A stretch of 46,195 nucleotides of DNA. Source: an uncultured Roseburia sp. Its GTDB lineage: Bacteria; Bacillota; Clostridia; Lachnospirales; Lachnospiraceae. This document shows, one piece after another, positions 388 to 44,160 of the stretch (position 1 is the stretch's first letter; each line of letters opens with the position of its first letter). Position numbers and translations under genes: made by a program. The stretch is from assembly GCA_947649645.1 (NCBI GenBank), contig CANSSP010000024.1, positions 1 through 46,195 of the forward strand, written 5' to 3'. The notes under the pieces are model-generated. The model saw nothing but the letters and a program-made list of their open reading frames with translations. It made no database searches and was not told the origin of the DNA.

Positions 388-1794
388 TTAACTGTGCATC
401 ATATAATTCATGGCATCTTTCACCGTTCTGACCCCAACCAGTTTTATTCCTTTTATCCCCGTCAGTGCATCCCGTGTGGACGAAAGGCATACCTCGGGCA
501 GCAGACATGTCTCAAAACCCAGTTTTCCGGCCTCCAGCACCCGCTGCTGCGCCATACTTACGGCTCGCACTTCACCGCTCAGTCCCACTTCGCCAAAACA
601 GATTGTCTTTTCATCGACGGGACGATCTTTATAGCTTGAAATGACTGCCAGAACAATCCCCAGATCAACGGCGGGCTCATTCATCCGGATACCTCCCGCT
701 ATATTGACATACGCATCACAGCTTCCAAGCGACAGCCCGAGACGTTTTTCCAGCACTGCCATCAGAAGGTTTACCCTGTTAAAATCGGTTCCTGCCGCAG
801 TACGTCTGGGTATTCCGAAATTGCTGTGGCAGACCAGTGCCTGTACCTCAACAAGAATCGGACGGCTTCCCTCCATAGAACAGGCGACGACAGAACCGGA
901 CGCTCCCTCCGGTTTTCCGCTCAGCATATACTCAGACGGGTTTTCCACCTCGGCAAGCCCCTCCTGCCGCATCTCAAACACACCGATCTCATTCGTTGAG
1001 CCAAAACGGTTTTTTACGGCGCGCAGAATACGATAGGCGGCATGCCGGTCGCCCTCAAAGTACAAAACCGTATCTACCATATGTTCCAGCACTCTCGGAC
1101 CAGCCACAACTCCTTCTTTCGTCACATGACCGACGATAAAGACAGAAATTCCCATTCCTTTTGCTATCTGCATCAGAACTCCCGTGGACTCTCTTACCTG
1201 CGACACACTCCCCGGTGCGGAGGATATTTCCTCACTGTGCATCGTCTGTATGGAATCGATAATTACAACCTCGGGCTTTTCACGCTCTATCACATTTTTT
1301 ATCACATGCAGATTCGTCTCGCAGAGGAGATGTAACGTATCTTGAAACGTCCCGATCCGCTGCGCTCTTATCCTGATCTGCTGCAGAGATTCTTCCCCCG
1401 ATATATAAAGCACATGTACCGCCTGCTCCGACAGACTGCGGCAGACCTGAAGCAGGATCGTCGATTTTCCGATTCCCGGATCTCCTCCCACCAGAACCAG
1501 CGAACCTTTTACAATTCCTCCGCCAAGCACACGGTCCAGTTCCTTCATCTGTGTGGACAGCCGTTTCTCTTTTGTCATCGTTACTTCAGAGAGCGGAACA
1601 GCCCGCACCGCCTCTTTATCCACACGCCCTGTCTTACTCACACTTTTTTTATCTGCCAGTTCCTCTGCAAATGAATTCCATTCATGACAGCCTGGGCACT
1701 GCCCCATCCATTTTGACGTCTCGTATCCGCAATTCTGGCAGAAAAATACCAATGTCTTTCCTTTTGCCATTTTAAGCTGACTCATCCTCTCCAT
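388..1794 (-). CDS. radA: DNA repair protein RadA (Sms)
   Basis: RadA is a RecA-like ATPase and DnaB-type helicase that processes branched recombination intermediates in the cytoplasm. The 468 residues show the family layout in order: an N-terminal C4 zinc finger (CQNC near 19-22, CPGC near 33-36), a Walker A motif GDPGIGKST at about 104-112, the RadA signature KNRFGST about 150 residues later, and a C-terminal Lon-protease-like domain. The start is uncertain. ATG at 1794 is the longest option but has no clear Shine-Dalgarno; most family members begin at the MAKGKT methionine (1770), and GGAGAGG sits directly in front of the ATG at 1785. It lies downstream of clpC and a small gene, the usual Firmicute clpC-radA neighbourhood, although a hairpin at 1822-1857 suggests its own transcription. 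Confidence 0.96.
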   Translation of the reverse strand: MERMSQLKMAKGKTLVFFCQNCGYETSKWMGQCPGCHEWNSFAEELADKKSVSKTGRVDKEAVRAVPLSEVTMTKEKRLSTQMKELDRVLGGGIVKGSLVLVGGDPGIGKSTILLQVCRSLSEQAVHVLYISGEESLQQIRIRAQRIGTFQDTLHLLCETNLHVIKNVIEREKPEVVIIDSIQTMHSEEISSAPGSVSQVRESTGVLMQIAKGMGISVFIVGHVTKEGVVAGPRVLEHMVDTVLYFEGDRHAAYRILRAVKNRFGSTNEIGVFEMRQEGLAEVENPSEYMLSGKPEGASGSVVACSMEGSRPILVEVQALVCHSNFGIPRRTAAGTDFNRVNLLMAVLEKRLGLSLGSCDAYVNIAGGIRMNEPAVDLGIVLAVISSYKDRPVDEKTICFGEVGLSGEVRAVSMAQQRVLEAGKLGFETCLLPEVCLSSTRDALTGIKGIKLVGVRTVKDAMNYMMHS

Positions 1795-1821
1795 ATCATT
1801 TTGGGATAATAACCCCGATTC

Positions 1822-1857
1822 AGAAGAAGACCCGTCCGGCCGGACGGGTCTTCTTTT
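1822..1857. terminator. Perfect palindromic hairpin, probable bidirectional terminator
   Basis: A 28-nt perfect inverted repeat (1826-1853) extends outward through A/T pairs. The plus strand continues into a T run and the minus strand into TCTTCTTCTG. It lies between the stop of the small gene at 1869 and the start of radA, so it most likely ends the small transcript. Confidence 0.7.
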
Positions 1858-1868
1858 TTATACTCTGC

Positions 1869-2279
1869 TCAGCACTTCTGTATACTGACTTCCACCGGAT
1901 CTCCTCCCAGCTCCACGCTGATGGAAAGCTTTCCTCCCAGACGGGTCTTCATCTTTCCGACTGTCGCCCTGTCAATTGAGATCTCATATTCCGCCGCGTC
2001 TTCAAGTCCCACGGTCAGCTGGGCATCCTCCGGCCCTTCCACCATAAACGTGACGCCGCCTTCCCCGGCAGCAAGTCCGGTCACCGAAGTTCCCGGAACG
2101 GATTCGTACACAAACATTCCGTTTCGCTCCAGCTTGGTAATCTCCTGGCAGGTCTTTACCTTATACATCGCTCCCCGATGTTCAAAATTGTCAAGTTTTG
2201 CCTTGGTGTCTCGCGTATAATCCCCAAAACTGATTGTCCCGTCTGCCTCTGAACGAATTAACTCACTAATAACACCCAT
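1869..2279 (-). CDS. Small conserved Lachnospiraceae protein (endosialidase-like by annotation habit)
   Basis: A 136-residue acidic protein with no signal peptide and no membrane helix. Its body (LIRSEADG, FGDYTRDTKAK, KLERNGMFVYESVPG) resembles short proteins I recall being labelled endosialidase in Lachnospiraceae genomes. That label seems poorly founded, because the protein is far too small for a sialidase and shows no catalytic motif. The C-terminal half alternates short beta-like segments. I chose ATG at 2279 because AGGAGG sits 7 nt upstream; the longer frame to 2333 has no ribosome binding site. It lies between clpC and radA with its own promoter candidate at 2350-2378. Its function is unknown; a small beta-rich binding protein is only a guess. 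Confidence 0.85.
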   Translation of the reverse strand: MGVISELIRSEADGTISFGDYTRDTKAKLDNFEHRGAMYKVKTCQEITKLERNGMFVYESVPGTSVTGLAAGEGGVTFMVEGPEDAQLTVGLEDAAEYEISIDRATVGKMKTRLGGKLSISVELGGDPVEVSIQKC

Positions 2280-2349
2280 TTTATCCTCCTGTGATACTAC
2301 CGGCATCGTCTTGTCTATCCCTTTGCCTGTCATAAATTTTGATGCTTAT

Positions 2350-2378
2350 ATTATATAATAAGTGCCTTTTTATTTCCA
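2350..2378 (-). promoter_or_regulatory. Promoter of the small gene between clpC and radA
   Basis: On the minus strand, TGGAAA (2373-2378), a 17-nt spacer, and a perfect TATAAT (2350-2355). It lies about 70 bp ahead of the start at 2279. Confidence 0.55.
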
Positions 2379-2451
2379 GTGCTTTCCCTCACATTTCATT
2401 CTTTTTTTATAACAGTCCGGCCATCCGGCTCCGGCACAGTTCGTGCGTTTT

Positions 2452-4941
2452 TCACGCTTCATCTGTTCCGCCCTCCTGGACATCGGGCGCCTTTCTGGCC
2501 TCAAATACCACCGTGTTTTTTCTTATCGTCACAGTGACATTCATCCCCTTTTTGACGTTGCCGCTTATTATTTCCTCAGCCAGACGATCCTCGATTTCAT
2601 TCTGAATCTTACGGCGGAGCGGACGTGCACCATATCTGGGTTCATATGCATTTTCGACAATATAAGCTTTTACGCTCTCGCGGACTTTCACCGTAAGTCC
2701 GAGCTGCTGCCTGCACCGCTGCGACAATTCGGCTGTCATCAGTCCCACAATCTGCTTCATATCCGTTTTGTTCAGAGCGCGGAACACAATCGTCTCATCA
2801 ATACGGTTTAAAAATTCCGGCTTAAAGATGCGGCGTACCTCCTCCATAACGCTGGCTTTCATGCGCTCATAATCCTGTTTCTCGTCGCTTCCCGACGCAA
2901 ACCCCAGTCTTTTCGGCTCAACAATCGCCTGCGCGCCGGCATTGGAAGTCATAATAATAATCGTATTTTTAAAATCCACCTTACGTCCCTGCGAATCCGT
3001 AATATGACCGTCGTCGAGCACCTGGAGCAAAATATTAAAAACGTCGGGATGTGCTTTTTCTATTTCATCAAACAAAACGACAGAATATGGATTTCTGCGC
3101 ACTTTCTCGGAGAGCTGGCCACCCTCCTCATGCCCGACATATCCGGGCGGAGAACCAATCATTCTGGAAACGCTGTGCTTTTCCATGTATTCGGACATAT
3201 CGACACGTATCATCGCCTGTTCGTTCCCGAAGACAGCTTCCGCAAGTGCTTTTGAAATCTCTGTCTTTCCGACGCCGGTCGGCCCCAAAAACAGAAAAGA
3301 ACCGGTCGGACGCCTTGGATCTTTTAACCCGACGCGCCCTCTCCTGACGGCCTTCGCCACCGCCGTCACCGCGTCTTCCTGCCCGACTACACGCCGATGC
3401 AGCGTTGACTCCAATTTTTTCAGGCGAAGGGATTCTCCCTCTGTCAGCTTTTTGACGGGAATTTTTGTCCAGCCGGAGACGACATCTGCAATTTCATCTT
3501 CGCCCACAGTCAGATTCTTTCTGCGAAGCTCCTTCTGTGTCTTCGCCGTCAGTCTGCCAAGTGTCTCCTCAAGCTCTTCTTTTTCCGTCTTTGCCGTTCT
3601 GGCCGCCTCAAGATCAGACTCCATAAGCGCCGCCTCAAGTTCTTCTTCCTTTTGCAGAATCTTCTGCCGCATCGCGGATATCTCCCTGGGGCGTACTCCG
3701 GCACCCAGCCGCACCCTTGCGGCTGCCTCGTCCATCAGGTCAATCGCTTTGTCCGGCAGAAACCGGTCGTTGATATAGCGGGCTGAAAGGTGTACGGCCG
3801 CTGCAAGCGCCTCGTCCGTAATCTTTACCTTGTGATGCTGCTCATACTGGCTGCGCAGCCCTGCAAGAATCTGCTCCGCCTCTTCCTCGGTCGGCTCCTC
3901 CACCATCACTGGCTGAAAACGCCGTTCCAGCGCCGCATCTTTCTCAATATGTCTGCGATATTCCTCAATCGTAGTCGCACCGATAACCTGAACTTCTCCT
4001 CTTGCGAGCGCCGGCTTTAAAATATTGGATGCGTCGATCGCTCCCTCCGCTCCACCGGCGCCGATCAATGTGTGAAGCTCATCGACAAACAGAAGGATGT
4101 TTCCGGCTTTCTTCACCTCAGCGATCACCTTTTTGATTCGTTCCTCAAATTCTCCCCGGTATTTTGATCCCGCGACAATACCCGATAAATCCAGTGATAC
4201 CACACGTTTTCCGAGAACGGTATCCGGCACCATGCCGGATATGATGTGTTCTGCTATCCCCTCTACGATCGCAGTCTTTCCAACTCCCGGCTCCCCGATC
4301 AGGCAGGGGTTATTTTTACTTCTGCGGCTCAGAATCTGGATGACACGGCTTATTTCTTCTTCCCTGCCCACAACCGGATCCAGATTTCCCTCGCGGGCAA
4401 GCTGCGTCAGATCACGCGAATACTGATTCAGCACCGGCGTCCCGTCTCCGCTCTTCTTCCTCCCAGGCTTTCCGTTCGCAAAATCCTCTTTGTACAGATT
4501 GGCATCCTCCCCCATCGCTATCAATGTATCGACATACATTTTCTGGACATTGACGGATAAGGTATTCAGCAGCCTGGACGCCACACACTCCGTTTCTTTT
4601 ATCATGGCGAGCAGAAGATGCTCCGTCCCGATCTTCTCGGAACGGAAACGGGAAGCTTCCTTTGCCGCGCCTTCGAGGACGCGGAACGCCCTCGGAGAAT
4701 ACCCCTCCTCTTCCAGAGTGCCGACAAGCGCGGCCGGCGCGATCAGTTCCTGGATCAGCTCCAATACTTTCTCATAGGCCACGCCGCTGTCCCCTAAAAC
4801 CTGGGCCGCCACCCCTGTCTCTTCTTTCAGAAGGCCCAGCAGAAGATGCTCCGTTCCGATATAATTATGATGCAGTGACCGGGACATCCTTCCTGCAATC
4901 TCAATCGCCCTCTTTGCCTTTGCCGTATATGGTGTCTGCAT
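2452..4941 (-). CDS. clpC: ATP-dependent Clp protease ATPase subunit ClpC
   Basis: ClpC is the AAA+ unfoldase that feeds substrates to the ClpP peptidase in Gram-positive cells. The 829 residues carry the expected order: two N-terminal Clp repeats (beginning YTAKAKRAIEIA, with GTEHLLLGLL and GTEHLLLAMI), a first AAA+ module with GEPGVGKTA and a DELHTLIGAG segment, a middle coiled coil with a UVR-like stretch (KEEELEAALMESDLEAA), and a second module with GPTGVGKTE, VLFDEIEKAH and the IIIMTSNAG sensor. The start at 4941 has AGGAGG 5 nt upstream. It follows the cohesin-like gene by 26 bp, so it is probably in the same transcript. The usual ctsR-mcsA-mcsB genes are not adjacent. No CIRCE or CtsR-type heptad operator was recognised in the short gap. 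Confidence 0.97.
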   Translation of the reverse strand: MQTPYTAKAKRAIEIAGRMSRSLHHNYIGTEHLLLGLLKEETGVAAQVLGDSGVAYEKVLELIQELIAPAALVGTLEEEGYSPRAFRVLEGAAKEASRFRSEKIGTEHLLLAMIKETECVASRLLNTLSVNVQKMYVDTLIAMGEDANLYKEDFANGKPGRKKSGDGTPVLNQYSRDLTQLAREGNLDPVVGREEEISRVIQILSRRSKNNPCLIGEPGVGKTAIVEGIAEHIISGMVPDTVLGKRVVSLDLSGIVAGSKYRGEFEERIKKVIAEVKKAGNILLFVDELHTLIGAGGAEGAIDASNILKPALARGEVQVIGATTIEEYRRHIEKDAALERRFQPVMVEEPTEEEAEQILAGLRSQYEQHHKVKITDEALAAAVHLSARYINDRFLPDKAIDLMDEAAARVRLGAGVRPREISAMRQKILQKEEELEAALMESDLEAARTAKTEKEELEETLGRLTAKTQKELRRKNLTVGEDEIADVVSGWTKIPVKKLTEGESLRLKKLESTLHRRVVGQEDAVTAVAKAVRRGRVGLKDPRRPTGSFLFLGPTGVGKTEISKALAEAVFGNEQAMIRVDMSEYMEKHSVSRMIGSPPGYVGHEEGGQLSEKVRRNPYSVVLFDEIEKAHPDVFNILLQVLDDGHITDSQGRKVDFKNTIIIMTSNAGAQAIVEPKRLGFASGSDEKQDYERMKASVMEEVRRIFKPEFLNRIDETIVFRALNKTDMKQIVGLMTAELSQRCRQQLGLTVKVRESVKAYIVENAYEPRYGARPLRRKIQNEIEDRLAEEIISGNVKKGMNVTVTIRKNTVVFEARKAPDVQEGGTDEA

Positions 4942-4967
4942 AGTTTCCTCCTACATCAGCGGATTTA

Positions 4968-7262
4968 TTACAAGTCATTCAGATCCACTATTTCCACTTC
5001 ACTCTGCATTTGAGGCTGCTTCTCCGTCAGCGTTCCCGACGGCTTTCTCACCACCGCCTGTCTCCTTGCCGGACGCTGTTCCACAGCCATTTTCTCTTCC
5101 GCCGCATATCTTCCCGATGCCGTCCTCTCTTGCGCAACCGGATTTCTTTTCACTGGCTGCCTGTCCTCCGCCTGCGGACGCCGCTCTGTCACGGGACGCC
5201 TTGCGGCAGCTCTTTGCGCATCTGCCGTCAGGCTCCCTGCCGGTACGGTTCTCTCCTGCATGGACGGATTTCTTCTCACTGGCTGCCTGTCCTCCGCCTG
5301 CGGGCGTCGTTCCTCCACAGGACGTCTTACGGAAGTCTTCTGTGTCTCTGCCGCCACGTGCATTTCCGATGCCGGCCTTTCTTTCTTAACCGGATTTCTC
5401 CTCACTGGCTGAAGTTCGTCTTCCTCCGGGCGTCGTTTCGCCGGAGACGCTTTCCCTGCAGATGGTCTTTCCACCGGAACAGGCCGCTCTTCTTCCAGTT
5501 CGTCCTCTTCTTCCAGTTCGTCTTCCCTGTCTTCCAAAAAGAAGCTTCGCATTCCCCGCTTCTCCTGCTTTGACCGGGAAACGCTCCCGCGGTCATGGTA
5601 CACTTCCTCTTCCTCTGCGTCTTCTGCAAAATCATCTTCGTATTCCGGCTCCTCGTCATCTCCGTATCTTCTCCGATGGATCAGCAGATTGATAATGACA
5701 ATCAGAAGCACCGCCGCCACAAAGACCAGTATGGCGATCACATTGCGCGTGGAAGCTTTTTCTTTTTTATACTGATCAGACAATTCGTTGTATTTCTGCT
5801 GCAGATACTCCATCTCTTCATTTTCCCCGGAAGCCTCTTCTTCTTTTACTTCTTCCTGCGCAGACAGGCCGGTAAACCGCTGATACGTTCCGTCCACGGA
5901 ATCATATCGATAATAGCTGCCAAAACCGTCCTGATTGAGTGCAAGGAAAATATAAAATTCTGCATTTTCCTGATAAGCCTGTATCGTCCCCTCTCCGGGC
6001 ACCGCCACCGTCGCCGCCTGATATGCAGCCTGCATCGCCTCATCCGCCGTCAGAGGAATGGAAAAGACAAACTTTTCCACGCCTCCGAATTTAACATAAG
6101 GATAAAAAGTGTCGTTTGTCCCGTCATAAAGAAAAAATTTTCCTTTCGCCTCCTCACCGGTGTCCGGTACTAAAAAAAGCATTGAGAGAGCAGTGCCCTT
6201 GCCGTAACTCACACCTTTGTACCCGGCTCCGTGGTACGTTACCTCCGCTTCCGCAAAATCAGCCGGAATCTCTTCCGTTCCAAAATCCTGTGAAATATGG
6301 TATGTCACTCCGTCGATAACCACCGCCCCGTCTGTCTGCGCTCCCTCGTCTGCAGGCTTTTCTTCCTCAATCGGCACCTCCGGTTCCGGGTCGGGCAGCT
6401 CATTTTCCGCCGGGGTCTCCGCAGCCCCCGCCGCCTGTCTCGTCACACGGATCGTATATGTTGCCGTCACCCCGTTTTCAGCCCGCACAACTACGCTGAC
6501 CGTATTCTCCCCCACAGCCAGATTCTTGTTTCCCGTCACCGATTCCACAACTGCCTTTTCATTGACCGGCGTCGCCGTTACGGCCAGATCCGTGACATTG
6601 TTGGGAACACTTGCCGTATATTTTACCGTACTTCCGGTAAACGCAGGTGAAAGCGTCCCGGAGGAGAGGGCCAGCACCTTCAGGGAATTGTCAGCAGACA
6701 GATTTTCAGAAGGCTTCTGTGCGTCGCCTGCCGCGCCGGCTGTGTTCCCGTCCGCCGTCCCTGTGTTTCCCCCGGCAGGCGTCTGATTGCCGTCGGCGGC
6801 ATTGTTATTTCCGCCGGTCGTCCCTGCGGCATTTTTCACGCTAATCGTGGTGCTGCTTCCCGACATGGACTCAAGTTCCTCATTTGTATCAAAAATCACG
6901 CCGTCCGCCGCCGCAAGAGTCACCTTGGAATCTCCTGCCGCCACAGCCTTAAGCGTTACCGTAAAACTGTCCCCGGTTGCCGTAACGCTGCTGCCTCCTC
7001 CTCCATACGTCGCAGAACAGCTCACAAACTTAAAAACCGCCGTGTCATAAGATACTGTCATCACGGCCACCGCCTTCTCCCCGGACGCCCCGGCGGCTCT
7101 CGCCGTCACCGTCACTGTATCCCCGATGTTGACACTGCCGCTCGATACGGCAAGCGACGTCTTCCCTGCCTGGGCCCATACCGTCATTCCTGGCCGCATA
7201 AGCCAGAGGCACAACCCTAAAATGAATGTGATCAGACACTTTTTACTGATTTTTCTCTTCAT
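4968..7262 (-). CDS. Membrane-anchored cohesin-like surface protein with long cytoplasmic tail
   Basis: 764 residues. A signal peptide covers about 1-32 (positively charged MKRKISKK, hydrophobic core, VWAQA). Residues about 34-142 form a cohesin-like beta sandwich (VNIGDTVTVT, MTVSYDTAVFKF). A Gly/Asn/Thr-rich linker follows, then a cadherin-like beta-sandwich domain (about 192-276, LSPAFTGSTVKYTASV to TYTIRVTR), an uncharacterised extracellular domain (about 312-465), a short coiled coil, and one transmembrane helix at about 507-528. The remaining 230 residues are cytoplasmic, very acidic at first, then basic and proline-rich with tandem repeats. The next upstream gene, 11 bp away, ends in a dockerin, so this protein is a plausible wall-side receptor for it. 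It has its own SD (GAGAGG). Cohesin identity is by pattern, not alignment. Confidence 0.85.
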   Translation of the reverse strand: MKRKISKKCLITFILGLCLWLMRPGMTVWAQAGKTSLAVSSGSVNIGDTVTVTARAAGASGEKAVAVMTVSYDTAVFKFVSCSATYGGGGSSVTATGDSFTVTLKAVAAGDSKVTLAAADGVIFDTNEELESMSGSSTTISVKNAAGTTGGNNNAADGNQTPAGGNTGTADGNTAGAAGDAQKPSENLSADNSLKVLALSSGTLSPAFTGSTVKYTASVPNNVTDLAVTATPVNEKAVVESVTGNKNLAVGENTVSVVVRAENGVTATYTIRVTRQAAGAAETPAENELPDPEPEVPIEEEKPADEGAQTDGAVVIDGVTYHISQDFGTEEIPADFAEAEVTYHGAGYKGVSYGKGTALSMLFLVPDTGEEAKGKFFLYDGTNDTFYPYVKFGGVEKFVFSIPLTADEAMQAAYQAATVAVPGEGTIQAYQENAEFYIFLALNQDGFGSYYRYDSVDGTYQRFTGLSAQEEVKEEEASGENEEMEYLQQKYNELSDQYKKEKASTRNVIAILVFVAAVLLIVIINLLIHRRRYGDDEEPEYEDDFAEDAEEEEVYHDRGSVSRSKQEKRGMRSFFLEDREDELEEEDELEEERPVPVERPSAGKASPAKRRPEEDELQPVRRNPVKKERPASEMHVAAETQKTSVRRPVEERRPQAEDRQPVRRNPSMQERTVPAGSLTADAQRAAARRPVTERRPQAEDRQPVKRNPVAQERTASGRYAAEEKMAVEQRPARRQAVVRKPSGTLTEKQPQMQSEVEIVDLNDL
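5079..5438 (-). repeat. Tandem repeats in the cytoplasmic tail
   Basis: Three consecutive repeat units encode residues about 609-728 of the cohesin-like protein. The last two are 42 residues (126 bp) each and nearly identical at DNA level around 5141 and 5267; the first is 36 residues and more diverged. Each unit carries RRP, then QPV(R/K)RNP, then ER. The units are strongly basic and proline-rich, which suggests a disordered binding tail. Confidence 0.8.
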
Positions 7263-7273
7263 GTTTTACCTCT

Positions 7274-9061
7274 CTATTTTATCTTTTCAATCCCAAGAAT
7301 ATGTTTCTGCAGAATAACCAGATCCTTATTTGAAATTTTTCCGTCTCTGCCCGTATCGGCTGCCTCCAGCGAAGCACCGCTTAACGCTTCGATCCCAAGA
7401 ATATGTTTCTGGAGTAAGACGAGATCCACATTGGAGATTTTTCCGTCTCCATTAATATCCCCATAAACAACCGCTTCATCCGATGCCGCCGGCGGCTGTG
7501 TCTCTCCTCCCGCCGTCTGCTGTCTCGACACATGAATGGTATAGGTTCGCGTCTGGCCACTCTGTGACACACAATTTACCTGTACTGTATTATCACCAGA
7601 ATTCAGCGGATATTTCCCCGCTCCCGACACCGTTGATGTCGATGCCACCGGTTTTGCGCCCACATTCACGGCGTCTGTATCCGCCCCTACGATCATGGAA
7701 TATTCTGTGTTCGCCCCGTCAAACGCCGGTGTCAGAGTACCGCCGTCCACCGTAAGAGCCGCAAGATAATTATTCGGATTTCCGGTATCCTGAAATCCCA
7801 CCGGCGACTCCGGCATATTCTGGTAGACCGGTATCCGGAATACAAATGCCTGGCTCTTATCGGTATAAGCCTTTGCCATACTGCTGCCCTCGCTGATTGC
7901 AGCCATAAGATTCGTCATATACTGATGCGAATACAGGCTGTTTTTGTAGACAACGTTAAATTTCTGAAAATAGATTGTGTTCTGACCCTTCTTCACATAA
8001 CTGTCCGCTACAATCTTACCGCCGCCCGTAATGGACTTATAAATAGAATTCCACCCCTGCGTTTTCGCATACGCAAGTCCGTTTGAGGCCGCAGACGCCG
8101 TCACTGTGGTAAACGCCCTCACATTAAAATAATTATAGTATCCCGCATAACCGGTATTTTTTCCGCTGATCAGAGGACTTGTCCCTCTTGCCCCCTGCTC
8201 CTGTCTGCACCGCGCGGCAAGGTGATAAGGACTTACGGAAAGACTCCTGCCAAGTTCCAGAAATGTCTGTGCATAACTTCTTACGGCTCCGTCCGTATCG
8301 GTATAATTTCCCGCCATAAAACTGTTTGCCAGAATGCCTTCTACCCCTGCAAGATTCTGATACGGCTCCGCCTCCAGTGTCTCAAACTGAAAAATATTCG
8401 TTTCATCCAGAAAATTGCGCGGATCCATACAGTATGCGATAAATTCCGTGGAAGCGCAGACCCAGCCCGCCCCGTCATATCCATACCACTTATTCGTCGC
8501 CCAGTTATAGGCTGCCCCGTCCGTCGCCTTCCTCGCATCGTTTACCGAAGACTGCACCAGATTTTTTCCGGCCACACTCTCTTTTTCCACCGAAGTCTTC
8601 CAGTCCAGCCCGGTCACCACCGGAACAAACTGCCAGTCCGGATATTTGCGGTGCAGTGCCAGAAGCGGCTGTGCATAGCTCGCCGGAAATCCCGCCGCCT
8701 CAAGCGCCGCGAGATATTCCGCATCCGCCGCACTGACCTCGGCAAAGGCCACAAGATCCGACCGGATATACCCCGTCTGCTGTCCCGAAAACCGAATCTG
8801 ATACCAGATATACCCGTCGGCTCCCGCCGCCTCATCCGTGACCGTGACCGCCGTCCCCGCGCCAAGCGACGTGATCACCTCGCCATCGACCGGCGCCTTT
8901 CGGACCCGCGCTCCCTGACTGACCGATGCCGGGCGCTCCGTGTATGCATAAGCAATACCCGAAAAATAACAAAAGGAGATACAAACAACTGCCAGGGATA
9001 TACCGATGGCAGTCGTCGTGTTTCCATTCTTTCTATTCTTCTTATCTATTGTGCATTTCAT
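7274..9061 (-). CDS. Secreted N-acetylglucosaminidase with SH3, cadherin-like and dockerin domains
   Basis: 595 residues from the chosen start. A signal peptide or anchor lies at about 14-40. A bacterial SH3 domain (about 43-108, ARVRKAPVDG to TGYIRSDLV) precedes a glucosaminidase-type catalytic domain (about 135-400) with the likely catalytic glutamate E288 in RCRQEQG and the conserved YYNYFNVRAF. A cadherin-like domain follows (about 432-512). The C-terminus is a type I-like dockerin (about 533-590) with two calcium loops, DINGDGKISNVD and DTGRDGKISNKD, each followed by LQKHILGIE. The predicted role is cleavage of peptidoglycan glycan strands at the cell surface. I chose 9061 because a GAGAGG-type SD precedes it and a strong promoter lies at 9104-9132; the longer frame to 9286 runs back through that promoter. 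It is co-transcribed with the cohesin-like gene. Confidence 0.9.
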   Translation of the reverse strand: MKCTIDKKNRKNGNTTTAIGISLAVVCISFCYFSGIAYAYTERPASVSQGARVRKAPVDGEVITSLGAGTAVTVTDEAAGADGYIWYQIRFSGQQTGYIRSDLVAFAEVSAADAEYLAALEAAGFPASYAQPLLALHRKYPDWQFVPVVTGLDWKTSVEKESVAGKNLVQSSVNDARKATDGAAYNWATNKWYGYDGAGWVCASTEFIAYCMDPRNFLDETNIFQFETLEAEPYQNLAGVEGILANSFMAGNYTDTDGAVRSYAQTFLELGRSLSVSPYHLAARCRQEQGARGTSPLISGKNTGYAGYYNYFNVRAFTTVTASAASNGLAYAKTQGWNSIYKSITGGGKIVADSYVKKGQNTIYFQKFNVVYKNSLYSHQYMTNLMAAISEGSSMAKAYTDKSQAFVFRIPVYQNMPESPVGFQDTGNPNNYLAALTVDGGTLTPAFDGANTEYSMIVGADTDAVNVGAKPVASTSTVSGAGKYPLNSGDNTVQVNCVSQSGQTRTYTIHVSRQQTAGGETQPPAASDEAVVYGDINGDGKISNVDLVLLQKHILGIEALSGASLEAADTGRDGKISNKDLVILQKHILGIEKIK

Positions 9062-39825: not shown

Positions 39826-39861
39826 GAATGAAATAAAAATTTAATGATTTCCGATTATAAT
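39826..39861 (+). promoter_or_regulatory. Candidate activator-dependent promoter of the reductase gene
   Basis: A perfect TATAAT lies at 39856-39861 on the plus strand without a recognisable -35. Upstream, TTCATTC (39784-39790) and GAATGAA (39826-39832) form a 7-bp inverted repeat that spans the divergent promoter. This suggests a regulator controlling one or both genes. Confidence 0.4.
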
Positions 39862-39960
39862 ACACTCTGCCGGAGCAGACTATGGAATATCCCCGCCAGA
39901 TTGCGGCATCTCCCACAGTATGTTATAATATCCCGGAAAAATCAAAAAGGAGGAATGACT

Positions 39961-41502
39961 TTGCCAAAAGATTATCTGACCGAATTTCTCCCCGACCTGG
40001 AGGAATTCAGAGAAAAAACAATGAAATTTCATCGCAAAGAAATGACGGTTCCCGAATACAAAGGGTTTTCGGGCGGATTTGGAAGCTATGCGGAACGCGG
40101 CGGCGCCACGCACATGTTAAGACTGCGCATGGCCGGAGGGCGCCTCACAAAAGACCGCCTTAAATTTATCGTGGATATCTGTGAGAAGTATCAGGTAAAA
40201 AAACTGAAACTGACCACCTGCCAGTCCGTCCAGCTCCACCATCTTCAGGCGGAAGACCTGTGTGAAATGATCGAGGCCGCCTGGAAAGCGGGCATGATCT
40301 CCCGCGGCGGCGGCGGCGATTTTCCACGCAATGTCATGGCCTCCCCTCTCTCCGGCGTACAGTCCGGGGAATATTTCGACGTCCTCCCCTATGCGGAAGC
40401 CGCAGGTGAATATATGATGGGCTTTATCAAAGCCGTTAAATTTCCCAGGAAGCTAAAAGTCTGCTTCTTAAACTCTCCCGAAAACGACGTGCACGCAACC
40501 TTCCGCGATCTGGGTTTTGCCGCCAATCCGGACGGGACATTTGACGTCTATGCAGCCGGAGGGCTCGGAAACAGACCGTGCCTGGGCGTGCGCGTGGCAG
40601 AGCACATCGCTCCCGCAAAAATTCTCTATTATATCAAGGCCATGGTCAATACGTTTGTCACATACGGCAACTACGAAAACCGCGGAAGGGCCCGGACCCG
40701 TTTTATGCAGGAGACGCTGGGAAAGGAAGGGTTTGTGAACGCATACCGGGACAAACTCGCCCAGGTTCTCGCCGAAGAGCAGCTTGATATCAGTCCGGTC
40801 AGCTCTCCTGTCACAAAATCCGGCAAAGGGACAGCGGAGGCTGACCGCCGCCTTATCCCGCAGAAGCAGGACGGACTCTATGCCGTCCATTACCAGCCCC
40901 TCGGCGGCGACCTGTCTCCGGCAAAGGCAAAGGAGCTGTACGGGCAGATCAAAGATATGGAAGCGGCAGAAATCCGTCTGACCGCAGAGGAAGGGCTTTA
41001 TGTCATCAACTGCAACGCCGCAGAAGCCGCACGGATTCTCGCCGCCACAGCCGACGGAGCCGGCACTCTCTTTGAGACCTCGGTGGCCTGCGTCGGCAAT
41101 TCCGTCTGCCAGGTCGGCGTCGGTGATTCCCAGGCACTACTGCATTCCTGCGTTGAAGCGGTGCGAAAAGAAAATTTTGCCGACGGCGTCCTGCCAAAGA
41201 TTCATATCTCCGGCTGCCCCTCTTCCTGCGCCGCCCACCAGACCGCAGGCATCGGCTTCCGCGGAGCCGTGAAACAGACGCCGGACGGCCCGAAACCTGC
41301 ATTCGCGATCTTTGTGGGCGGCTGCGCAAAAGCAGGCAGCGAGATTCTGGCCGACACCGGAAAAGCGATCGCTGCAGACAAAATCCCGCGCTTTCTCGTT
41401 GACCTTGGAAAAATGGTCGCCTCAGCAGACACGACTTATGAGAACTGGGTTTTCAAAAACCGGGACAGGCTGGACGACCTGATTGAAACCTATACTGCAT
41501 AG
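39961..41502 (+). CDS. Sirohaem nitrite/sulfite reductase
   Basis: 513 residues from TTG at 39961. It is a ferredoxin-type nitrite/sulfite reductase with two ferredoxin-like half domains (GAYAERGG-type FGSYAERGGATHMLRLRM and KLKLTTCQSVQLHHL near the N-terminus; GGGGDFPRNVMASP) and the sirohaem/4Fe-4S cysteines as C-x5-C (codons at 41089 and 41107) and C-x3-C (41215 and 41227). It reduces sulfite to sulfide or nitrite to ammonia with six electrons; the sequence does not decide which. AAGGAGG sits 7 nt before the TTG but only 1 nt before the in-frame ATG at 39955, so TTG is preferred. No sulfate or nitrate genes are adjacent. Confidence 0.92.
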   Translation: MPKDYLTEFLPDLEEFREKTMKFHRKEMTVPEYKGFSGGFGSYAERGGATHMLRLRMAGGRLTKDRLKFIVDICEKYQVKKLKLTTCQSVQLHHLQAEDLCEMIEAAWKAGMISRGGGGDFPRNVMASPLSGVQSGEYFDVLPYAEAAGEYMMGFIKAVKFPRKLKVCFLNSPENDVHATFRDLGFAANPDGTFDVYAAGGLGNRPCLGVRVAEHIAPAKILYYIKAMVNTFVTYGNYENRGRARTRFMQETLGKEGFVNAYRDKLAQVLAEEQLDISPVSSPVTKSGKGTAEADRRLIPQKQDGLYAVHYQPLGGDLSPAKAKELYGQIKDMEAAEIRLTAEEGLYVINCNAAEAARILAATADGAGTLFETSVACVGNSVCQVGVGDSQALLHSCVEAVRKENFADGVLPKIHISGCPSSCAAHQTAGIGFRGAVKQTPDGPKPAFAIFVGGCAKAGSEILADTGKAIAADKIPRFLVDLGKMVASADTTYENWVFKNRDRLDDLIETYTA

Positions 41503-41516
41503 CGCGGAAATGAAAA

Positions 41517-41549
41517 TCCACCAGAGAGCGCCGGATACTCTCTGGTGGA
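41517..41549. terminator. Convergent terminator, 12-bp perfect stem
   Basis: TCCACCAGAGAG (41517-41528) and its exact complement (41538-41549) with a 9-nt loop. The minus strand continues into TTTTCATTTCC. It sits between the convergent reductase and SIR2 genes and serves at least the SIR2 gene. Confidence 0.8.
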
Positions 41550-41595
41550 CATACAATGCTTACAAAAGATCAGAATCCGTCTCTTATCGCAGACC

Positions 41596-44160
41596 CTAAT
41601 AACTATCCACGAGAATATCGTCCTGCTCTTCCTGGATTCCGAGCATTTTTTGCCCATTTAAAGCATTCCAGTATGGATCCTTTGGTTTAAAGCTGATCGC
41701 ATCCACCTTATTATTCATTTTAAGCAGCAGTACAAATTCATTTAAAAGCCCCTGAATATAATTATCCCTGCTGGATAGCGTGGAATCAATCAACATTTTC
41801 ATTTGTCTGATTTCACCATTACTAATTACTTTTTTATACCTCTTCAGATATCTGATTTTTTCCAACACATAACAATGTATAGAAAAATTCCTGGCTTTAT
41901 TCTTATAATGTTCATGACTGTGAATCAGTTCAAACATTTTCTCTTCACCGATTTTAAACAAAGTTTCCGCTTCCACAATATCTTTTGTATAATTTGCCTG
42001 TTTTAAATAATTTCGTGCGATTGCATGCTGAATCTGATATGCATGAGGACGTATACTCCTCGCCATCTTTAAATGGTTCAGCGCTTTGGCGTAATCTTTT
42101 TTCTTTTGTTCCACAATCCCCATCTGCAGCCAGTAATAACTTATTTCTCCATACTCTGTTTTTAACTGATAAAACAGTGATAAAATATCGGTCAGGCCAA
42201 AATGCAGCCTGTTTTCTAAAATATCCACCCTCAGAAAACTTTCAAAAATAACTCTCCAGTAATTGTTATCGTTTTCTGAAAAATATGGAGCAATATACTT
42301 TAAAATGCCTAATATAATTTCCTGTTTTTCTCCCGCTTTCGTCTCATTCCAGACCTGATCTAAAATAATTCTGTTTTTTAAAGTAACCCCTTCGGCATCC
42401 ACCCTGACAAAATCTACCACAGCCGCCTCCCCGGCAGATTTTATTTCTTTTACTTTATGAAAACAATTAAAATCAATGGAATAGCGGGCCGTAAGCATTT
42501 CGTTCGGATAATAAGGCAGATCCATCTGCTCAAAAACTGTCAGCTCCTTAAATAATTTCATATATTGTTCGCTGTCATCCGTAAGCAGATCCTTTAAAGA
42601 ATCACTTACGCGTTTCTGAAAATTACCTCCATATGTAATCGCCATAAACAGATTCGACAGTATTTTGTATCTGGTGATCTCCGCGCATCCCTGCGGCTCA
42701 TTTCTCGACAATTCCCCCAGGTACCCCTTTTGAGATAATTTGGGATATATTATCTGCGCATACGTATAATCCAGTTTGTCTTTCACTTCAAATTCGTCAT
42801 ATGGATTTCCTTCTAAATAATACCTTTTCTTAAAATGATAATAATTCCGGGACGTTGTAAGTACCAGCAGCTTTTTATTCGTATTATTTTCTTCAAACAT
42901 CCTTTCAATAATTTTGTAATTAAAACTGGCGTCTTCTATCAGCAGGGCATAGCGTTCTCCTGTGTCTTTCTGCATAAATTCAAACAGCTCTTTATAAGAA
43001 AGACTCTTTCCCTTAAATTCAAGAACCGTATAACCTTGTGTGTCCAGCCATGCCCCCGTCTGTTTTAATAAACATCCTTTTCCCACAAGCCGCTTTCCGT
43101 ATAACGCAATGCAAAATGTATTGCCCTGTGTATACACAATCTGACTGATACGTTTTTTTAAGTTCTGAAAATTAGTACTTTCAAAAAGCCAGTCCTCCAG
43201 AACATCACGCCATTCACAATTATACCCCTCATACAGTTTGCTTTCATATACCTGCCTTGATTCGATACTGTTCACAATATCTTTGTACAGATATATTCCA
43301 GCATAATTCAGACGCCTGATACATTTCTCCAGATCATTGGGATTATAATTCATTGTAGTCAGAAATTCCAGAAATTGTTCTGCAGTCCATTCCAGCAGAA
43401 TCCCGGAAAAAGCTTTGACCCGATTTCGAAATTTAATGGTCGGTCTGGGATCGACAAAAATCATTTTCCCTTTACGAAAATATCCCGCCTGTTCATATTT
43501 TATGATATATGAATCGATATCCGCCTCATCCATACTGGCACCAATAAATATAAAATTCTCACGCTGAATATCATGTCCCAGATCATTCAGTTTAAAATTC
43601 ATCCTTCCACTGATCAGATTACTATACTCTTTACGGCTGAATACCAGTTCTTCTACAGAACCATTCACACATCCGTGCAGTTTTATATATTCCAGCCCCT
43701 CCTGCCCTCTCTTTTGTTTTGACTGATTCTGAACCAGCAGATCACATTGTGTTTTCCTGTATATGACCTCTACCAGATTATCAATATTTACCGTATAAAT
43801 CTTTTTCCACGGATACATCGATAAATGATAATGAAAATCTGCAGGTTTCACATTCCCTAATCTTTTCACCAGGAAACTGCGCAATTCGTCATATTGATTT
43901 AAAGAATCATCTATAAACTCACATACGTCCTGCAGTTCATATCGACCAATTTCGTTTTCCACTTCTTCATCCACATTACCCTTAACAAATGCTTCAATAA
44001 TCTCCTGCTTTAAGGCATCTCCCAATGGAATATTGCCGTAATCGTTCGTAGCCCCCAGCGAAAAGCCTGCGCCCAGAAACAGCATTGGCGGCTCCGCTTC
44101 CATAATCCTTCTTACCTCTTCTACATCTGCCTTATCTATCTGTTTTTCCTCACCCATCAT
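41596..44160 (-). CDS. SIR2 / P-loop NTPase / TPR protein, candidate phage-defence STAND-like protein
   Basis: 854 residues. The N-terminal SIR2-like domain (about 20-270) has GAGFS at 30-34, the TxNxD-type TVNIDN at 123-128, and LHG at 161-163 with a candidate catalytic histidine, all consistent with NAD binding or hydrolysis. A P-loop NTPase follows: GKRLVGKG at 355-362 (third position of GK(S/T) replaced by glycine), Walker B-like YALLIED at 404-410, and LLVLTTSR at 431-438. The C-terminal third is helical with TPR-like repeats (MGIVEQKKKDYAKALNHLKMA). The order resembles SIR2-STAND (Avs5-like) and other defence sirtuins that deplete NAD on phage sensing. The gene is clearly more AT-rich than its neighbours, with its own promoter and terminator, which suggests transfer. 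GGAG lies 7 nt before the ATG. Function is inferred. Confidence 0.85.
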   Translation of the reverse strand: MMGEEKQIDKADVEEVRRIMEAEPPMLFLGAGFSLGATNDYGNIPLGDALKQEIIEAFVKGNVDEEVENEIGRYELQDVCEFIDDSLNQYDELRSFLVKRLGNVKPADFHYHLSMYPWKKIYTVNIDNLVEVIYRKTQCDLLVQNQSKQKRGQEGLEYIKLHGCVNGSVEELVFSRKEYSNLISGRMNFKLNDLGHDIQRENFIFIGASMDEADIDSYIIKYEQAGYFRKGKMIFVDPRPTIKFRNRVKAFSGILLEWTAEQFLEFLTTMNYNPNDLEKCIRRLNYAGIYLYKDIVNSIESRQVYESKLYEGYNCEWRDVLEDWLFESTNFQNLKKRISQIVYTQGNTFCIALYGKRLVGKGCLLKQTGAWLDTQGYTVLEFKGKSLSYKELFEFMQKDTGERYALLIEDASFNYKIIERMFEENNTNKKLLVLTTSRNYYHFKKRYYLEGNPYDEFEVKDKLDYTYAQIIYPKLSQKGYLGELSRNEPQGCAEITRYKILSNLFMAITYGGNFQKRVSDSLKDLLTDDSEQYMKLFKELTVFEQMDLPYYPNEMLTARYSIDFNCFHKVKEIKSAGEAAVVDFVRVDAEGVTLKNRIILDQVWNETKAGEKQEIILGILKYIAPYFSENDNNYWRVIFESFLRVDILENRLHFGLTDILSLFYQLKTEYGEISYYWLQMGIVEQKKKDYAKALNHLKMARSIRPHAYQIQHAIARNYLKQANYTKDIVEAETLFKIGEEKMFELIHSHEHYKNKARNFSIHCYVLEKIRYLKRYKKVISNGEIRQMKMLIDSTLSSRDNYIQGLLNEFVLLLKMNNKVDAISFKPKDPYWNALNGQKMLGIQEEQDDILVDSY

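Follow-up and report, generated by a model that had tools for sequence, protein, structure and literature searches.

A patchily distributed Avs5-like SIR2-STAND protein of an uncultured Roseburia and a paired Walker A and Walker B change in its family

Here, we present the analysis of a single gene on a contig of 46,195 nucleotides from an uncultured Roseburia sp. (Lachnospiraceae; GenBank assembly GCA_947649645.1, contig CANSSP010000024.1), the whole of which is referred to as the window. The gene is a single intact open reading frame (ORF) on the minus strand (41596-44160), which starts with ATG and encodes a protein of 854 amino acids (aa) with a SIR2-like domain, a STAND nucleoside triphosphatase (NTPase) domain and C-terminal repeats. 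Judged by its sequence, the protein belongs to an Avs5-like SIR2-STAND lineage. Its deviant phosphate-binding loop (P-loop), which ends in GKG, is no oddity of a single gene. Read from the family alignment, it represents one of two coordinated changes, in Walker A and in Walker B, that nearly all of its clade have in common. With a probability of roughly 0.6, the protein is an Avs5-like system that would sense a phage product via its repeats and likely hydrolyse nicotinamide adenine dinucleotide (NAD+) via SIR2, with a nucleotide switch in which other residues occupy the two likely Mg2+ ligand positions in 81 of the 83 lineage members sampled.

The kinship with Avs5 was seen in sequence and in the predicted structure. 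A profile of the family finds Avs5 of Escherichia fergusonii (EfAvs5) at an expectation value (E) of 1.6e-18, with profile positions 4-698 aligned to EfAvs5 residues 40-739 of 869, and the top Foldseek matches of the AlphaFold2 model are two Avs5 filament entries, EfAvs5 (9jap) first and the AVAST5 filament (9nc9). Both results support the SIR2-STAND assignment proposed in the initial annotation, which had been made from the DNA letters alone. That annotation had also considered a new subtype. A subtype does exist, and what divides it off is the paired change found throughout the family, not the unusual loop of one protein. The family represents a natural experiment on how far the STAND/NLR immune switch rests on hydrolysis of the nucleotide and how far on its binding, combining the same SIR2 effector and repeats with both likely Mg2+ ligands either kept or absent.

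Two Walker residues that change together

The family sample comprised 125 proteins, namely the best 120 of 192 matches and five new ones among 120 of 199 in a second search. P0087 (645 aa) and P0118 (590 aa) were excluded from the counts, leaving 123 proteins, 49 residues of which are invariant throughout. These include G355, G360 and K361 of Walker A as well as E419, R438 and H442. In P-loop NTPases, Mg2+ is held by the Ser/Thr of Walker A and the Asp of Walker B. The position of this Ser/Thr, residue 362, is occupied by Asp in 46 proteins, Ser in 34, Gly in 26, Ala in nine and Thr in eight, so that Ser/Thr is absent in 81 of 123, the window protein with its loop GKRLVGKG (residues 355-362) included. 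The commonest form in the sample is a GKD Walker A. At the Walker B position 409, Asp is present in all 42 members with Ser/Thr and in none of the 81 others, which have Glu (73 proteins) or Asn, Ser, Gly, Gln or Lys (eight proteins). The pairing holds after thinning to 70% identity (56 sequences; Asp in 28/28 versus 0/28) and to 50% identity (14 sequences; 5/5 versus 0/9).

Trees were calculated without the two Walker motifs, using FastTree for 129 rows and IQ-TREE for 69 rows. The distant rows L012, L013, L046, L048 and L049 were aligned and left out of the tree, and FastTree warned of long branches for EfAvs5, L011, L045, P0082 and P0086. All changed proteins fall on one side of a branch supported by 97 and 100 in the two trees. 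This side holds 83 of the 123 proteins, 81 of them changed; the remaining two, P0072 and P0078, carry Ser 362 and Asp 409 and are nested within it. Parsimony gives two changes of state on the tree. With this pair left out, 92 columns separate the two groups well (at least 112 of 121 proteins), and at these columns the pair resembles the changed clade in 74 and the Ser/Thr group in three (321, 362 and 409), 15 being mixed or undecided. Once the pair is counted, position 409 and position 362, which defines the groups, are the only columns separating all 123 proteins. From this pattern of residues, sites 362 and 409 are judged to have moved together, and their joint move probably occurred twice. 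Recombination was considered as the origin of P0072 and P0078, but a swapped NTPase domain is unlikely, as both proteins resemble the changed clade more than the Ser/Thr group in each part compared (SIR2, NTPase, NTPase core and C-terminus). A second, more distant SIR2 and P-loop protein lies at 1483-3348 of locus L012 (congener G042), where it is cut by the locus end; it has NG in place of HG and a canonical GKS P-loop.

The absence of Ser/Thr from Walker A and of Asp from Walker B could also mark a decaying STAND protein, whose NTPase core would be a structural pseudo-switch while the repeats alone drive the assembly for NAD cleavage. A deviant P-loop, with Gly for Lys, is likewise known from animals, in the SAMD9 family, which shares the SIR2-STAND-TPR order (PMC5445408). 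Decay is argued against by low ratios of nonsynonymous to synonymous substitution (dN/dS), which are 0.056-0.080 between the window gene and five of six complete relatives (the sixth was not computable) and 0.039-0.124 for the 11 of 21 pairs computable overall, these being rough values with dS above 1 in ten of the 11. Furthermore, retention of the phosphate-binding Lys would be unexpected in a purely structural shell, and the six residues named above are invariant in 123/123. We therefore regard decay as improbable.

No published account of the paired change, no paper on nSTAND5 or PF25199 and no paper joining Avs5 with Lachnospiraceae were found in the literature searched, which leaves out most subscription papers.

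A possible binding-only switch

By analogy with Avs5, the C-terminal repeats would sense a phage product and nucleotide binding would change the state of the STAND domain. Activation would then build a SIR2 assembly as in Avs5 filaments, whose SIR2 domains would hydrolyse NAD+, and the resulting NAD+ loss would arrest the infection. A binding-only switch is predicted because Gly, Lys and Arg are kept while the likely Mg2+ ligands are replaced; the STAND domain may thus work through nucleotide binding, Mg2+-dependent hydrolysis being slight or absent, and act as a one-way latch, a suggestion drawn from the alignment that we make with moderate confidence. A more far-reaching version is tentative and has somewhat less than an even chance. 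It states that the clade, made up of bacterial NLR-like immune sensors, gave up its STAND Mg2+ site in one coordinated step and now relies on nucleotide binding by itself, with a hydrolysis-free one-way latch firing the NADase; natural sister proteins lie on both sides of this step, and both residues are present again in a single nested pair.

Mutants of PaAvs5 bear on this point (PMC12931631). Protection is lost in the Walker A mutants G362A and K363A and partly removed when the Arg corresponding to R438 is replaced by Ala; of the Walker B mutants, E410A loses it and E410Q keeps it. From the Walker B mutants, the authors propose a role of this motif in NTP binding and conformational change, not in catalysis; in their conclusion, "binding or hydrolysis" is required. 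An ordinary Avs5-type ATPase switch would be compatible with a Walker B Glu, as PaAvs5 also has Glu there and loses protection with Ala. In such a switch E409, D410 or, in GKD members, D362 would take over the binding of Mg2+, and ATP would be hydrolysed as in other STAND proteins; an acid is favoured at 409, as 73 of the 81 changed proteins retain Glu there. On the other hand, Gly or Ala at 362 (35 of 123) offers no side-chain ligand, eight of the 81 have neither Asp nor Glu at 409, and the two sites change jointly and not by drift. All in all, the ATPase switch appears possible but rather unlikely.

Several observations weigh against an Avs5-like defence protein with an altered switch. Only two changes of state occur on the tree, so the coupling of the two sites rests on few independent events, and a sign test of it was without power. 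Beyond the family the coupling is not universal, as both L011 (30% identical) and PaAvs5 (PMC12931631) have Thr with Glu, from which it follows that Ser/Thr can exist without the Walker B Asp. The loss of protection in E410A means that the Walker B acid of PaAvs5 matters, and most changed members of the present family have Glu at the corresponding site. An alternative mode of Mg2+ binding by Asp or Glu at 362 and 409 is conceivable, above all for the 46 proteins with GKD. No clear defence system was found around the gene copies: of ten chosen flanking proteins from six loci, nine were without a PADLOC match at E 1e-5 and one was a subtilase. Finally, we know of no phage or NAD assay for the family of 123 proteins sampled here.

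Architecture, composition and distribution of the gene

The domain structure proposed in the initial annotation was recovered. In the single open frame, Pfam gives a SIR2_2 match above the cut-off (E 1.3e-10) and an nSTAND_NTPase5 match (E 3.9e-8; 33.7 bits) just under the cut-off of 34. The TPR-like repeats gave weak matches around residues 675-724, below the cut-offs. A SIR2 fold, whose absence would have spoken against the annotation, is predicted for the N-terminal part by the AlphaFold2 model and Foldseek. The SIR2 motifs are GAGFS, TVNID and HG, and their residues N125, D127 and H162 are kept in 123/123. In the repeat region, W677 and Q679 are invariant in all 123 proteins and residue 663 is Tyr or Phe in 114. 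The positions of all features are collected in Table 1.

Table 1. Features of the SIR2-STAND gene and its surroundings (window coordinates)
Feature	Position	Strand	Evidence
SIR2 - STAND NTPase - repeat protein gene, 854 aa	41596..44160	-	open frame; low dN/dS
SIR2-like (predicted NADase) domain, residues 8-273	43342..44139	-	
N125, predicted catalytic Asn of SIR2, motif TVNID	43786..43788	-	invariant in 123/123; aligns to TTNYD of ThsA
H162, predicted catalytic His of SIR2, motif KLHG	43675..43677	-	invariant in 123/123; aligns to His of ThsA
STAND NTPase domain, residues 310-480	42721..43233	-	nSTAND_NTPase5 at 310-439 (Pfam); EfAvs5 alignment
Walker A GKRLVGKG, residues 355-362; G362 (43075-43077) in Ser/Thr position	43075..43098	-	G355, G360, K361 invariant in 123/123
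Walker B ALLIED, residues 405-410; E409 (42934-42936) in Asp position	42931..42948	-	D409 in 42/42 Ser/Thr members, 0/81 others
R438, counterpart of PaAvs5 Arg (PMC12931631)	42847..42849	-	invariant in 123/123
Helical repeats at the C-terminus (residues 500-835; predicted sensor), including W677 and Q679	41656..42663	-	AlphaFold2 helices; weak TPR matches
Hairpin terminator between SIR2-STAND gene and convergent gene 39844-41502	41516..41550	-	14-pair stem, 7-base loop, T-rich tail

The marked AT-richness noted earlier was confirmed among the 30 window ORFs of at least 200 aa picked by script, where the gene has the lowest GC content (0.374, i.e. 37.4%) and the lowest GC content at third codon positions (GC3, 0.385), the next-lowest values being 0.422 and 0.456. 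It is only a weak and unclean mark of recent arrival, because the homologous gene is lower in GC than its own flanks in all six other loci with a complete copy and its GC3 spans 0.22-0.52 across loci. The strong terminator of the initial annotation is present as a hairpin behind the stop codon, at 41550-41516. An own promoter was not established, the 12 promoter-like sites found for the gene being no excess over the 10.0 +/- 3.6 in shuffled sequence. Just upstream of the gene start, a terminator-like hairpin with a T run (44240-44222 and 44239-44211, minus strand) overlaps the nearest promoter-like match; it may end the upstream gene or attenuate the SIR2-STAND gene. Repeats between 40900 and 45000 are limited to short two-copy matches and one inverted pair of 80% identity with one arm inside the gene, and none cleanly brackets the gene. 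In its own genome, the protein has one match at E 0.001.

Full-length relatives were detected in four of 60 congeners, the own genome included; the other three are 30-36% identical, and there were two additional partial matches. None was found in the 38 genomes of other genera in this sample. The sample of the bacterial family gave matches in ten of 397 genomes (three full length), and that of the phylum, at E 1e-20, in two of 398, the own genome and one partial match. Copies with 67-78% identity occur in seven other records, and the nearest relatives are therefore not in the congeners searched, where the best copy reaches 36%. Phage records gave no match, plasmid records three partial matches covering 17-36% of the query, and viral contigs three weak matches with 22-30% identity.

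The surroundings of the copies differ. The homologues are not fixed at one locus, and their neighbours vary; fixation at the same locus had been named as a finding that would count against the initial annotation. The window neighbours (from 30 kb on) have no match in the seven other loci. Between loci, a 58% identical protein is found in L007 and L008 at different distances and a 27% match connects L003 with L009, while an ABC-type protein of L003 matches (32%) a window gene 23 kb away. Within 700 bases of flanking DNA on each side, short stretches of 43, 33 and 16 bases are shared among L002-L004, at the upstream end only. By these sequence comparisons, the patchy presence and differing neighbours fit a horizontal spread of the single gene. 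An empty site was not found: in 16 congener regions around flanking genes, the only window ORF recovered was the query flanking gene, plus one 37% match in L069. In the candidate G037, the two flanking genes share a contig and a strand (in the window their strands are opposite) and are separated by about 10.9 kb that contain no other window gene; it was rejected as not being the same site. A resolvase (L006 6917-7498) and a YhgA-like transposase-family protein (L004 10819-11889) lie near the homologous gene and are possible vehicles, though they do not recur across loci. In L005, the gene next to the homologue on its upstream side (4552-7896) encodes a 1114-aa protein with an HD-CE domain.

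A regulatory function of the SIR2-STAND protein in housekeeping or stress, instead of phage defence, would have to be reconciled with this patchiness (full length in four of 60 congeners and three of 397 family genomes), with nearest relatives (78%) outside the congeners searched, with the lack of a fixed neighbourhood and with an architecture close to the proven anti-phage Avs5. What speaks for it are the window neighbours, which look metabolic from their translations, the few defence-like genes around the copies examined and the absence of a phage record match next to merely partial plasmid matches. We consider such a role quite improbable, slightly more so than decay. Under the Avs5-like reading, the gene is an additional defence candidate of Clostridia, solitary and patchily distributed, which the PADLOC models do not name.

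Comparison with Avs5 and other systems

The window protein and Avs5 are both single chains, in which a SIR2 domain at the N-terminus is followed by the STAND NTPase and by repeats at the C-terminus, with matching order and spacing. The Walker A motif is located at 355-362 here and at 357-364 in PaAvs5, Arg 438 is found in both, and W-x-Q occurs in both repeat domains. PMC12931631 describes GAGxS, T-x-N-x-D and HG/NG as SIR2 motifs of Avs5 and a conserved aromatic residue, Trp and Gln in its repeats. The window protein shares SIR2 (PF13289) with these motifs, homology to EfAvs5 along the chain, Arg 438 and the aromatic/Trp/Gln residues of the repeats. It is not filed as a strict Avs5 member because its Walker A, compared with GxxxxGK[S/T], has the Gly and Lys without the Ser/Thr. 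Further differences are the SIR2 HG motif, in contrast to NG in PaAvs5 and LHING in EfAvs5, and the few named hosts of its relatives, which are Lachnospiraceae and other Clostridia. The Pfam labels nSTAND3 and nSTAND5 do not separate the two, because EfAvs5 matches both alike (33.0 and 32.8 bits); for the window protein nSTAND5 scores as given above and nSTAND3 is not listed at E 1.

PADLOC models gave no match for the window protein at E 1 and, for three relatives, one weak match (P0088, mad8, E 0.0086) and none for P0089 and P0117. This says little on kinship with Avs5, because EfAvs5 residues 40-739, used as control, gave no Avs5-named match either, only ThsA and SIR2 models. Other SIR2 systems are more remote. 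DSR2 aligns closely in the SIR2 domain only, longer alignments having a root-mean-square deviation of at least 15, and the alignments listed for ThsA (Thoeris) and KomBC (Kongming) are limited to model residues up to about 273. In SAMD9/SAMD9L of animals and their bacterial relatives, the loss is the opposite one: the Walker A Lys is replaced by Gly and Thr/Ser is kept (GGT/S), and these proteins have additional AlbA, OB-fold and SAM parts (PMC5445408). Among bacteria, the Avs5-like lineage described here parallels the SAMD9 family in having a deviant P-loop.
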